Below are positions 48,492 to 53,158 of a DNA stretch of 64,000 bases, piece by piece. A program made the position numbers and the translations under genes. The DNA is from Desulfosoma sp. (GTDB lineage: Bacteria > Desulfobacterota > Syntrophobacteria > Syntrophobacterales > DSM-9756): positions 55,235 through 119,234 of the forward strand of contig JBBFKY010000003.1 in the NCBI GenBank assembly GCA_037481875.1, given 5' to 3'. Numbering within the stretch: position 1 is the stretch's first letter; the number at the start of each line of letters is the position of its first letter. Below the pieces are notes generated by a model that was not told the DNA's origin, ran no database searches, and worked only from the letters and a program-made list of their open reading frames with translations.

Positions 48492-49442
48492 CTAACGTTC
48501 CAAAAGCTGGTTGGCCCAGACAGGGTTTTCTATCTTTTTGTTTTCCAAATGCATGACGGCATAGATGATGCTATTGTAAGGCACAGGAACGCCGTGTTCC
48601 CTGCCGAGGCGGACCACCATGCCGTTAAGGGCTTCCACTTCCGTTTTGCGATGCCATTCTAGATCGCGCAGCATGGAACACTTGAACTTGCGGTTGTAGG
48701 AATACGCCAGTGCCATGGCTTCTTCCACGGCATTGTCCGGTAAACCGATGCCGCATTTCTTGGAAAGCTCCAACACTTCCTTCATGGTCCCTTCCAGGAC
48801 TTCGCGGGTTTCCGGGCAATCCAAAATGAGACCCAAAGCCGCCCGTCCCAGGGTGCTCACCCCATGGACGCCGCAAATGAAAAGAAATTTGGCCCACAGG
48901 ACTTTTTGAATGTTGTCGGAAACTTCAGCATCAATGCCTGCCTGGTGAAAGACATCTAGAATTTTCTGAACCCGCTCCGTGCGTTCCCCGGATAGTTCCC
49001 CGAAGATAATTTTTCCGGGCTTTCCCGTGTGCGCAATGACACCGGGAGACGCAATGGTGGATTCAATAAAGACGGTTCCGGGCAGTATTTTTTCTTCACC
49101 GAAAACCTCACTCAGTTTCTCGGCGTTATCGATCCCGTTTTGAAGTGTGAGGATGGTGGTGTCCGTTTCTACCATGGGAGCTGCAAAACGAGCCGCCTTT
49201 TCTGTATCATGGGATTTGACGCAAAAGAGCAGGAGATCCACCGGGCCGATCTCTTCCGGCTCCGATGTGGCGTGAATACGTACACGAAAATTCTCGTTGT
49301 TGGTCACCACTTCCAAGCCTTCTTCTTGCAAGGCTTCCAAATGCTTTCCTCGAGCCACAAAGTGGATATCCACGCCGGCGCGCGCCAGAAAACCTCCGAA
49401 ATAGCCCCCAACCCCTCCGGTACCCAAGACCCCGATCTTCAT
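48492..49442 (-). CDS. 2-dehydropantoate 2-reductase (PanE/ApbA family)
   Basis: 316 residues; ATG 49442 follows AAGGAGC. The N-terminal NADP-binding motif is GVLGTGGVGGYFGGFLARAG; other features are FCVKSHDTE, LTLQNGIDN, the catalytic-Lys helix KVLWAKFLFICGVHGVSTL, and the C-terminal EVEALNGMVVRLGREHGVPVP. It would reduce ketopantoate in coenzyme A synthesis, though the family also includes other 2-keto acid reductases. It converges on the ubiD-like gene, seven bases apart, and diverges from the cysteine synthase fusion. Confidence 0.88.
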   Translation of the reverse strand: MKIGVLGTGGVGGYFGGFLARAGVDIHFVARGKHLEALQEEGLEVVTNNENFRVRIHATSEPEEIGPVDLLLFCVKSHDTEKAARFAAPMVETDTTILTLQNGIDNAEKLSEVFGEEKILPGTVFIESTIASPGVIAHTGKPGKIIFGELSGERTERVQKILDVFHQAGIDAEVSDNIQKVLWAKFLFICGVHGVSTLGRAALGLILDCPETREVLEGTMKEVLELSKKCGIGLPDNAVEEAMALAYSYNRKFKCSMLRDLEWHRKTEVEALNGMVVRLGREHGVPVPYNSIIYAVMHLENKKIENPVWANQLLER

Positions 49443-49688: not shown

Positions 49689-52037
49689 ATGGGAGAGTTC
49701 ATGGTCATGAAAAACGTCTATGACAATGTGCTTCAAGTGATCGGCAACACTCCGTTGGTTCGCATCAACCGCCTTAACCCGAACCCTCGAACCACCATTT
49801 ACGCCAAGCTGGAATCCAAAAATCCCGGAGGATCCATCAAGGATCGTACGGCCCTGTTCATGATCGAAGCCGCGGAACGCAGCGGGGAATTAACCCCGAA
49901 CAAAACCATCATCGAAGCCACCAGCGGCAACACGGGTATCGGGCTGGCTGTGGTCGCCGCCGTCAAAGGCTACCGCCTCATCTTGGCCATGCCGGAAACA
50001 GCCAGCAGCGAACGGCAAAAGATCCTCAAGGCCCTAGGCGCCGAATTGCTGCTCACTCCAGGCGCTCTTGGCACCGATGGCGCTATTGAAGAAGTCTATC
50101 GCATGGTGCGGGAACAGCCGGATAAGTATTTTCTGGCGGATCAATTCAATAACCCGGCTAATCCTGAAGCCCATTATCGGGGGACAGGCCCGGAAATCTA
50201 TGAGCAGACCGAAGGGAAAGTCAACGTGGTGGTGGCCAGCCTGGGAACCAGTGGCACGGCCATGGGTATCCTTCGAGCCATGAAGGAACGAAACCCTTCT
50301 ATTGAAGTTGTGGCTGTGGAGCCCTATCCGGGCCATAAAATTCAAGGGCTCAAGAACATGAAAGAATCTTACGTGCCGGGTATCTTTGAAAGACACAAGC
50401 TGGATCGCATTGTTCATGTAAAGGACGAAGATGCTTTTGAAATGGCGCGGCGTTTGGCCAGGGAAGAAGGGCTGTTTGTGGGCATGAGTTCCGGAGCCTG
50501 CATGGCGGCGGCCGTGGAAATCGCCAAGGAAAGAGAAAGCGGCGTGATTGTGGCGGTCCTTCCCGATGGAGGTGACCGCTATCTCAGTACCAACCTTTTC
50601 ACCACCATGTTGGAACCTGATTTTCGCTTCTTTGATTTTCTTCAACGCCGTAAGGTGGACTTTAAACCCGCCGTGGAAGGCAAAATCCGCATCGCGGTCA
50701 CGGGCCCTCCCCTGGATTCCTGCCTTTCCCTGGAAACGGCTCGAAGACTCATGCTGGCCGATATTCTCACTCGATTCGTGCAATCCAAAGGTTTTCGCAC
50801 GGAAACCTTTGTCCTGCTTCCTGATCTGGACAGCCGATCCATTCAGTGCGCCATCGAAAAAAACACAAGTCTTGAAGACTATGTTCAGGATCGCATCGCC
50901 GTCTTTTCCTCGGAATTACAAAAGCTGGGTATGGCCTCTCAGGTGGCCCTGACCAAGACCAGCGAGCACCTGGAAGCAATCGTCCAATTGGTTCGATCCT
51001 TGCTAAAAAAAGGAGTGGCTTACGAAAAGTTACGTTCCGTTTATTTCAATGTCGCCCAAGTCGACGACTACGGCCGACTTTCACGGGTTGATCCCCAAAA
51101 GGTTCGGTCCGGCTCCTCCGTGGACCTGAGTGCCTACGAAAAATTGAACCCTCGCGATTTCGCCTTGCTCAAGCGTGCAACCCTCGCCGAACTGAAACGC
51201 GGCCATTACCTCAAGACCGAATGGGGCAACGTGGTGCCCACATGGCACATCGCCTCCGCCGCCATGGTCATGGATCATTTCGGATTTCCTTTGGACATTT
51301 ACGTCAGTGGCATGGACTTTTTGTTTCCTCACTTGGAAAACCTTAGGACCATCGCCTGGGCCCTTACCGGAAAGGCCTATGCCAACACATGGCTTCTGTG
51401 CGAAAGGATTCAAAACGCGGAAGGAGAAACCACGAAATCGACAGAACCCGAAGCATGCCCAAGGTCCCTAACCCTCGAAGACCTTTATGCCGAAGGGATG
51501 ACTCCCGCCGAAGTGCGTTTCTGGCTCATTGCATCCCATTACCGCAAGCCCATGACAATATCCCGACAAAGCCTTCGAAGTGCCGCACGGGGACTCAAAC
51601 GCGTTCGAGAATTCATCCATCGATTGCACCATGCGTCGGTGCATGAGGGTGCCGTAAACGGGGTGGAAGAAGAAGTGTTTTCCTTGGAACGCGGCTTTTT
51701 CGACGCCCTGGCCGATGATATGAACACGCCCAAGGCTTTGGCGGCCCTTTTCGATTTCGTGCGCACCATGAATCTTCGACTGGAACAGGGACCTCTGGCA
51801 CCACGAGCCAAGGAAACCGCCCTCAAGGCGGTGCAAAACGTGGATCGTATTTTGGGTCTTTTTGCCTTGGATCTTCGGCCCTTGTCCGCCGAAGAAAAGG
51901 CCCTCATGGAACAAAGGGAAGCCGCCCGCGCTGCAAAGGATTGGGCTCGAGCCGACGCCCTTCGAGAAGAACTGCGCCGCTTGGGCATCGTGGTTCGAGA
52001 CGCCGCTCACGGCACCCTGTGGGAACGCGTCTCCTGA
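49689..52037 (+). CDS. Cysteine synthase fused to an inactive-looking cysteinyl-tRNA synthetase module
   Basis: 782 residues in one uninterrupted frame; ATG 49701 (GGGAG five bases upstream) is an alternative start. Residues ~7-310 are an O-acetylserine sulfhydrylase/CBS-like PLP enzyme, with PLP lysine 51 in GGSIKDR, SGNTG 79-83, GTSGT 186-190 and SSGA 267-270 all intact. Residues ~330-782 align throughout with class I CysRS, including WHI..AM (519-526), FPH.EN (546-551), the DALR domain (ALADDMNTPKAL) and the tail DWARADALREEL. The zinc ligands are lost (Cys to Thr 338, Cys to Ala 522, and the HHENE site reads HLENL). HIGH reads CLSLE (345-349), and KMSKS is replaced near 579-591 by ETTKSTEPEACP. 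Cysteine synthesis is likely; tRNA charging is not. The second module may bind tRNA-Cys or cysteine, or regulate; unknown. Confidence 0.9.
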   Translation: MGEFMVMKNVYDNVLQVIGNTPLVRINRLNPNPRTTIYAKLESKNPGGSIKDRTALFMIEAAERSGELTPNKTIIEATSGNTGIGLAVVAAVKGYRLILAMPETASSERQKILKALGAELLLTPGALGTDGAIEEVYRMVREQPDKYFLADQFNNPANPEAHYRGTGPEIYEQTEGKVNVVVASLGTSGTAMGILRAMKERNPSIEVVAVEPYPGHKIQGLKNMKESYVPGIFERHKLDRIVHVKDEDAFEMARRLAREEGLFVGMSSGACMAAAVEIAKERESGVIVAVLPDGGDRYLSTNLFTTMLEPDFRFFDFLQRRKVDFKPAVEGKIRIAVTGPPLDSCLSLETARRLMLADILTRFVQSKGFRTETFVLLPDLDSRSIQCAIEKNTSLEDYVQDRIAVFSSELQKLGMASQVALTKTSEHLEAIVQLVRSLLKKGVAYEKLRSVYFNVAQVDDYGRLSRVDPQKVRSGSSVDLSAYEKLNPRDFALLKRATLAELKRGHYLKTEWGNVVPTWHIASAAMVMDHFGFPLDIYVSGMDFLFPHLENLRTIAWALTGKAYANTWLLCERIQNAEGETTKSTEPEACPRSLTLEDLYAEGMTPAEVRFWLIASHYRKPMTISRQSLRSAARGLKRVREFIHRLHHASVHEGAVNGVEEEVFSLERGFFDALADDMNTPKALAALFDFVRTMNLRLEQGPLAPRAKETALKAVQNVDRILGLFALDLRPLSAEEKALMEQREAARAAKDWARADALREELRRLGIVVRDAAHGTLWERVS

Positions 52038-52105: not shown

Positions 52106-53158
52106 TCAGCTCAGTCCTAACACACGACGCAACCGCTCCGCCTCGCAAGGCTCCAAAGGATAGGCTGACGAAGACCCGGCAAAATTTTCAAGCACCACAC
52201 ATTTGGAATCCATGTGGACCACCGCCGAAGCCGTCATGGGCACTTTTCCTAAACCTCCGGGAAGATCCACGACAAAATGGGGAAGAGCCAGACCTGAGAT
52301 GCGATGACGCAAGGTCGCCAGGAGTTCCATTCCCGCCGAAAGGGGTGTGCGAAAATGGGCCGTGCCTTGCATAAGGTCCATCTGCAGAAGGTAGTAGGGA
52401 CGAACTCTTAGCGTCAAAAGCTCCGTGAAAAGCGTACCCAAAACGGCGGCATGGTCGTTAATGCCTTTGAGAAGCACGGTTTGACTACCCAGGGGAATGC
52501 CGGCATCGGCTAAAAGACCACAGGCTTCACGGCTTTCCTTGGAAATTTCCGATGGATGATTGACGTGAATGTTTATGTACAAGGGAGCATAGGCCGCCAG
52601 ACACCGCACCAAGGCGGGTGTGATGCGTGCTGGATCGGCAAAAGGGACCCGGGTGCCAAGGCGAATGAGGCGAACATGAGGAATTTCCCGCACCCTGGCG
52701 ACCAGGCTTTCCAGAAAATCCACAGGCAGCATGAGAGGATCTCCGCCGGAAAGAAGGACGTCATGAATGGCGGGGGTTTTTCGTATATAGTCCAAAGCCT
52801 CGTGAACAAGATCGTCGGTGAGAGGTACCGGGTGAGTCCAGCGTCTTTTTCGTGTGCAAAAACGGCAATGCACCGCACACAGATCGCTGACGATCCAAAG
52901 CACTCGGTCGGGATAGCGATGCACCAGATTGGGAACAGGGGATCGGCTTTCTTCTCCCAAAGGATCCGTCAGACCAAAAGGGTCGCTGATATCCAGTTCT
53001 CTTGGATCCGGCACCACTTGTCGCCATACAGGGTCCTCAGGAGCGGTGATAAGGTTTGCAAAATGTCGGCTGAGAACGAAAGGGTAAACCTGATGCACGG
53101 CCTTCAAGGGGTCTAGAGGGATTTTCCAGTGGTTTGCAAACTGCTCGAGAGAGATCAC
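52106..53158 (-). CDS. KamA-family radical SAM aminomutase (lysine 2,3-aminomutase-like)
   Basis: 350 residues, starting at GTG 53158. The radical-SAM cluster motif is CAVHCRFC (Cys 94, 98, 101). PLP-site Lys about 305 is in DLPGGLGKVPM, and the two Asp that bind the substrate amino group in KamA have counterparts (about 261 in QMDLMQGTAHFRTP and 298 in VVDLPGG). SGGDPLML is present. It could be lysine 2,3-aminomutase or the EF-P modifying EpmB; EpmB is usually of similar length and no epmA or efp is nearby, so the choice is open. It diverges from the MFS gene by 28 bases. Confidence 0.85.
   Translation of the reverse strand: MISLEQFANHWKIPLDPLKAVHQVYPFVLSRHFANLITAPEDPVWRQVVPDPRELDISDPFGLTDPLGEESRSPVPNLVHRYPDRVLWIVSDLCAVHCRFCTRKRRWTHPVPLTDDLVHEALDYIRKTPAIHDVLLSGGDPLMLPVDFLESLVARVREIPHVRLIRLGTRVPFADPARITPALVRCLAAYAPLYINIHVNHPSEISKESREACGLLADAGIPLGSQTVLLKGINDHAAVLGTLFTELLTLRVRPYYLLQMDLMQGTAHFRTPLSAGMELLATLRHRISGLALPHFVVDLPGGLGKVPMTASAVVHMDSKCVVLENFAGSSSAYPLEPCEAERLRRVLGLS

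Follow-up and report, generated by a model that had tools for sequence, protein, structure and literature searches.

Proteins are already known in which a dead aminoacyl-tRNA synthetase senses the supply of an amino acid. In HisZ and in the HisRS-like domain of GCN2, a dead aminoacyl-tRNA synthetase fold is tied to the supply of an amino acid. Both belong to class II and concern an amino acid other than cysteine, and neither is joined to the only synthase of its amino acid. We know of no case in which a dead aminoacyl-tRNA synthetase is fused to the only synthase for its own amino acid. A search of the literature, largely outside subscription papers and with preprints excluded, also found none, and a first-pass annotation of the DNA discussed here had likewise been aware of no characterized example. 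Most bacteria restrain their cysteine output at the CysE step. MshC, the mycothiol ligase (TIGR03447), illustrates that a CysRS homolog can have a non-translational role. CysRS* of Desulfobacterales, an extra CysRS homolog in related bacteria, is catalytic and has no anticodon domain (PMC9437257).

We analyzed a 64,000-nucleotide stretch of Desulfosoma sp. DNA (the window), in which a 782-aa frame at 49689-52037 (+) runs without an internal stop. As the first-pass annotation had claimed, this one frame joins an intact cysteine synthase to a full-length CysRS homolog; both parts are recognized by Pfam. The features of the locus are as follows.

48492..49442, minus strand: ketopantoate reductase-like gene (by sequence), upstream neighbor, outside the system
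49689..52037, plus strand: fusion gene, CysM/CysK-type cysteine synthase plus apparent pseudo-CysRS, 782 aa (ORF, Pfam)
49731..50567, plus strand: PLP-dependent cysteine synthase domain (PALP), residues 15-293 (Pfam), catalytic motifs all intact
49839..49841, plus strand: PLP-binding Lys51 in PGGSIKDR, column invariant in a 98-sequence alignment
50352..50354, plus strand: Lys222, invariant in 98/98 fusions, aligned to Arg220 of M. tuberculosis CysM
50604..50660, plus strand: junction of the two halves, residues ~306-324, continuous in all relatives
50661..51584, plus strand: catalytic (Rossmann) domain of the apparent pseudo-CysRS (tRNA-synt_1e), residues 325-632 (Pfam)
50700..50702, plus strand: Thr338 in place of the first zinc Cys (motif alignment)
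50727..50738, plus strand: SLET (347-350) in place of HIGH (motif alignment)
51255..51257, plus strand: Ser523 in place of the second zinc Cys (motif alignment)
51324..51344, plus strand: FPHLENL (546-552) versus FPHHENE, with zinc His548 kept and Leu552 in place of the zinc Glu
51405..51458, plus strand: stretch aligned to the KMSKS loop, motif absent (motif alignment)
51696..51863, plus strand: DALR domain (DALR_2), residues 670-725 (Pfam)
51882..52013, plus strand: CysS_C anticodon-binding domain, residues 732-775 (Pfam)
52106..53158, minus strand: lysine 2,3-aminomutase-like gene (by sequence), downstream neighbor

The true start of the protein is probably Met7 (ATG at nt 49707), because residues 1-7 have pLDDT values below 50 in an AlphaFold2 model and homologs begin at Met7. 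The model of the fusion protein has a mean pLDDT of 91.8 and a pTM of 0.70; at this pTM, the predicted placement of the two halves relative to each other is uncertain. The best fold match in the PDB is 1u0b, CysRS with tRNA-Cys. Given that both neighboring genes lie on the opposite strand, the fusion gene is probably monocistronic.

We tentatively propose, at somewhat less than an even chance, that the gene encodes a CysE-independent, probably phosphoserine-using cysteine synthase joined to a pseudo-CysRS that probably senses tRNA-Cys. The synthase half would combine sulfide with an acceptor that is not O-acetylserine from CysE, and that most likely is O-phosphoserine, to yield cysteine. The pseudo-synthetase would use its anticodon domain to bind tRNA-Cys, which it would not charge, and would report cysteine demand, for example as uncharged tRNA-Cys, to the synthase half. 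It would take over the control exerted by CysE in other bacteria, in the manner of HisZ or the HisRS-like domain of GCN2. The features of a regulatory pseudo-synthetase are present, namely a synthetase fold, the loss of catalytic residues, a tie to amino-acid metabolism and a working synthetase elsewhere.

The PLP-site motifs of the synthase half are complete (PGGSIKDR with K51, TSGNTG, GTSGT and SSGA), and among the 108 distinct fusion proteins that we extracted, the synthase motifs show conservative variation at most. This half passes the cut-off of TIGR01136 (cysKM; 385 bits vs 344) and scores below the cut-offs of both the cysK and cysM equivalogs. Its likeness to CysK/CysM covers the full domain and all PLP-site motifs, but the fusion differs by the C-terminal 460-residue CysRS homolog and by having no CysE partner in its genome. 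Arg220 of M. tuberculosis CysM is the phosphate-binding residue of an O-phosphoserine sulfhydrylase. Lys222 of the fusion aligns to it without gaps, in an LKNM/LRNM loop; the M. tuberculosis enzyme (PDB 3dki, 3dwg) resembles the fusion in having a basic residue here, although it is Arg in the former and Lys in the latter. Phosphoserine use by the synthase half is weakly supported by this position, and Lys222 is a lead only, because E. coli CysM, an OAS enzyme, carries Arg there as well.

The genome that contains the window (3.40 Mb in 19 contigs, 99.6% complete) has no second cysK, so the fusion is its only cysteine synthase. It also has no CysE at E ≤ 1e-20, and the usual O-acetylserine route therefore appears to be absent. 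Among 69 fusion genomes checked, a standalone second CysK occurs in 39, while in 30, this one included, the fusion is the sole cysteine synthase (CysK/M). CysE (TIGR01172) follows the same division: of the 39 genomes that have a standalone CysK, 38 gave a match, as opposed to a single, doubtful match among the 30 genomes whose sole synthase is the fusion (Fisher p = 4e-17, uncorrected for shared ancestry). The thresholds for CysE were E ≤ 1e-20 in one search and 1e-35 in another, and most matches are under the curated cut-off. With CysE missing from 29 of the 30 fusion-only genomes, it seems that the fused synthase can do without this enzyme. CysE usually adjoins the standalone CysK, e.g., at G026:C1:3508517-3510053, so that genomes with the fusion have a classical OAS module as well.

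Other routes to cysteine were considered for the 30 fusion-only genomes. Synthesis on tRNA by SepRS/SepCysS was rejected, as SepRS was found in none of them. A MetX-type serine acetyltransferase was rejected as the source of O-acetylserine, with one weak match in the 30 genomes. A diverged acetyltransferase scoring under the cut-off could supply O-acetylserine. Many near-complete genomes of the phylum seemingly make cysteine via the fusion and have no recognizable CysE. In this respect, the known biochemistry of the phylum is incomplete, both for the acceptor substrate and for the feedback control of CysE-less fusion genomes. Cells that lack CysE must restrain cysteine synthesis at some other point, which a tRNA-Cys sensor on the synthase would provide.

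That CysE is absent from genomes with no synthase besides the fusion would also be expected if the synthase half were a cystathionine beta-synthase or a serine sulfhydrylase that acts on free serine, and so did not need CysE. This half does match TIGR01137 with 316 bits, and the window's own genome has one PF01053 enzyme. However, that match is far under the TIGR01137 cut-off of 510, whereas the cysKM model scores higher and is over its cut-off. Moreover, a PF01053 enzyme that could act as the partner for reverse transsulfuration is missing from 24 of the 30 fusion-only genomes, which removes this pathway for those 24. We consider a free-serine enzyme improbable.

Judging from its motifs, the CysRS half of the window's protein is apparently repurposed and catalytically dead. 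We take the zinc ligands of E. coli CysRS to be C28, C209, H234 and E238. The corresponding residues of the fusion are Thr338, Ser523, His548 and Leu552, i.e., three of the four ligands are lost and only the His is kept. The first-pass annotation had reported replaced zinc ligands (Thr338, Ala522 and HLENL for HHENE), but the residue opposite the second zinc Cys is Ser523 rather than Ala522, and His548 is retained. It had also recognized that HIGH is gone, although the position reads S347-L-E-T350 and not CLSLE; like the second zinc Cys, this motif had been placed one or two residues away from its true position. The absence of KMSKS, which it had noted as well, is confirmed, and an unrelated acidic stretch near residues 573-590 occupies this place. 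With the zinc, HIGH and KMSKS sites gone, its suggestion of a cysteinyl-adenylate-like ligand is unlikely for the window's clade.

Canonical CysRS (TIGR00435; E. coli 1u0b) resembles this half in its whole fold, its DALR and anticodon domains and its G34-contact residues, but the HIGH, KMSKS and three of the four zinc ligands of the canonical enzyme are absent from the fusion. The CysRS half fails the TIGR00435 cut-off (232 bits vs 340) and that of TIGR03447 (96 bits vs 485). Identity with MshC is ruled out by score and by architecture: MshC is a working cysteine-activating ligase without an anticodon domain, and the fusion is the reverse. The possibility that the fusion serves as a working CysRS for lack of another is also ruled out, given that a CysRS sequence apart from the fusion is present in 69 of 69 fusion genomes, and that the window's genome has a canonical cysS at C1:327823-329283.

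The separate CysRS is mostly a single frame over the TIGR00435 cut-off, and is partial or split in G009, G014 and G094. In G094, the canonical cysS lies in two overlapping frames of 318 and 247 aa (G094:C2:129281-130649), which is either a frameshift or a split gene; the CysRS half of the fusion in this genome is among the most eroded. The canonical CysRS of G014 is in two pieces (residues 1-104 and 103-465) located far apart on one contig (C1:4276118-4277278 and C1:4550729-4551040), representing a split gene or an assembly problem.

Of 56 genomes of the class, 52 carry the fusion (G017 being counted among the 52 by fragments only), so it is no artifact. Across the phylum, it was detected in about 160 of 395 sampled genomes, with junction matches at ~1e-15 or better and CysRS-only matches at ~1e-10 to 1e-14. 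Relatives that are 41-87% identical have the same fusion. A scan of genome contigs with the window's module found fusions only in Syntrophobacteraceae/Deltaproteobacteria. A sequencing error or chimera was rejected on account of the identical junction across the phylum. A quick tree, from which the motif columns were left out, comprised 81 fused modules and 34 sequences of canonical CysRS. One branch with an SH-aLRT value of 99 parts the fused modules from canonical CysRS; the deep branches within the fused group are poorly resolved. This topology is consistent with the fused form having arisen once.

Present in many bacteria of the sulfate-reducer type, the fusion constitutes an old family that extends across the phylum and whose members have lost the motifs to differing degrees. 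All four zinc ligands are kept in 35 of the 108 fusion proteins, and the His alone in 38. Only one protein (L078, from genome G059) has the zinc ligands, HIGH and KMSKS together. In the window's order, every CysRS catalytic motif is lost save the zinc His, and lineage f45 (L120, L122, L123) has lost the same sites elsewhere in the tree. The simplest reading is that the ancestral fusion had an intact synthetase and that catalysis was then lost repeatedly. The natural series from the apparently intact synthetase of L078 to fully erased ones makes the transition from enzyme to sensor testable. The locus L171/L078, with all zinc ligands, a HIGH-type motif and KMSKS, could represent the ancestral state, in which the protein may have been bifunctional.

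The less eroded members bear on whether the CysRS half might still activate cysteine, either as a tRNA ligase or as an MshC-like ligase, and be fed directly by the synthase half. Some fusions outside the class keep the zinc ligands and KMSRS, many are above the TIGR00435 cut-off, and L078 has every motif. Against this, the window's clade has lost the three catalytic sites, the window's protein scores below the cut-offs of both the CysRS and MshC models, and a canonical cysS is present. We regard an active CysRS half as very unlikely indeed, the least probable of the explanations discussed here.

Between congeners, dN/dS is 0.03-0.04 for the synthase half and ~0.1 for the CysRS half, at a dS near 1. 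The value for the CysRS half indicates that this half is maintained. Together with the confidence of the predicted fold, it bears out the view of the first-pass annotation that this is a repurposed synthetase whose fold is kept under purifying selection. These data also address whether the CysRS half could be a leftover of the fusion event that is tolerated and has no function of its own, as the repeated decay of the catalytic site might suggest. A leftover would not be expected to show such a dN/dS across the CysRS half, to stay at full length in all 108 proteins or to be modeled with a mean pLDDT above 90, and we consider it highly improbable.

Within the CysRS half, the catalytic domain is relaxed and the anticodon domain is conserved as in canonical CysRS. 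In nine genomes of the window's class that hold both proteins, the mean identity of the Rossmann parts is 0.48 and 0.57 among fused proteins versus 0.75 and 0.87 among canonical ones, while for the anticodon domain it is 0.544 versus 0.564. In E. coli CysRS, the contacts to G34 of tRNA-Cys are made by R423, R427, W432 and D436 (PMC12684709). These residues are matched by R743, R747, W752 and D756 of the window's protein. Among the 108 fusions, R423 is kept in 108, R427 in 106, an aromatic residue at 432 in 108 and D436 in 108. The kept anticodon domain and G34 contacts suggest, rather than prove, binding of tRNA-Cys. The first-pass annotation had raised this possibility, which is plausible given the conserved anticodon domain alongside the relaxed catalytic domain. 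In other words, the pseudo-CysRS may have kept its tRNA-recognizing part and may sense the cell's need for cysteine.

A cyanophycinase-like (S51) peptidase in related genomes, presumably so from its sequence, ends in a CysS_C hairpin (L164:551-1930, L165:484-1851 and L166:1697-3025), which has the same Arg/Trp/Asp residues as the CysS_C domain of the fusion. CysS_C is thus a mobile domain used outside synthetases, and the Arg/Trp/Asp residues of the fusion may be structural or of wider role, because the peptidase hairpin shares them.

This hairpin is one of the observations that would accord with a structural or allosteric pseudo-synthetase that does not bind tRNA, and that instead sets the oligomeric state, stabilizes the synthase or replaces the CysE partner. 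Others are the erasure of catalytic and ligand sites in the window's clade and the absence of CysE, the usual partner of CysK. From a pure scaffold, however, one would not expect an anticodon domain conserved at the canonical level beside a relaxed Rossmann domain, nor G34-contact residues that all outlast motif losses which apparently occurred several times independently. We consider a tRNA-independent role rather unlikely.

The proposal of a tRNA-Cys-sensing fusion can be extended to the whole phylum. In this form, a phylum-wide, CysE-independent, O-phosphoserine-using cysteine synthase would be gated by tRNA-Cys through the fused pseudo-CysRS, its output would be set by the charging state of tRNA-Cys, and its members would form a staged enzyme-to-sensor series with several apparently independent losses of catalysis. 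This extended version is doubtful.

There is no conserved neighborhood or operon among 61 loci, and the neighbors vary by lineage. No riboswitch or T-box was matched by Rfam 5′ of the fusion gene, its leader RNA folds no better than shuffled sequences, and promoter and terminator scans were at chance level.

Some of these genomes have a third CysRS-like paralog of ~420 aa, at L167:4038-5318, L168:4058-5485, L169:4032-5294, L170:4027-5295 and L172:3755-5257. No tRNA gene was found within ~4 kb of it. The paralog has KMSKS and a HIGN-like motif, together with an altered zinc site (WNIQDPA, RHHDYN). It has no anticodon domain and resembles CysRS* of Desulfobacterales.
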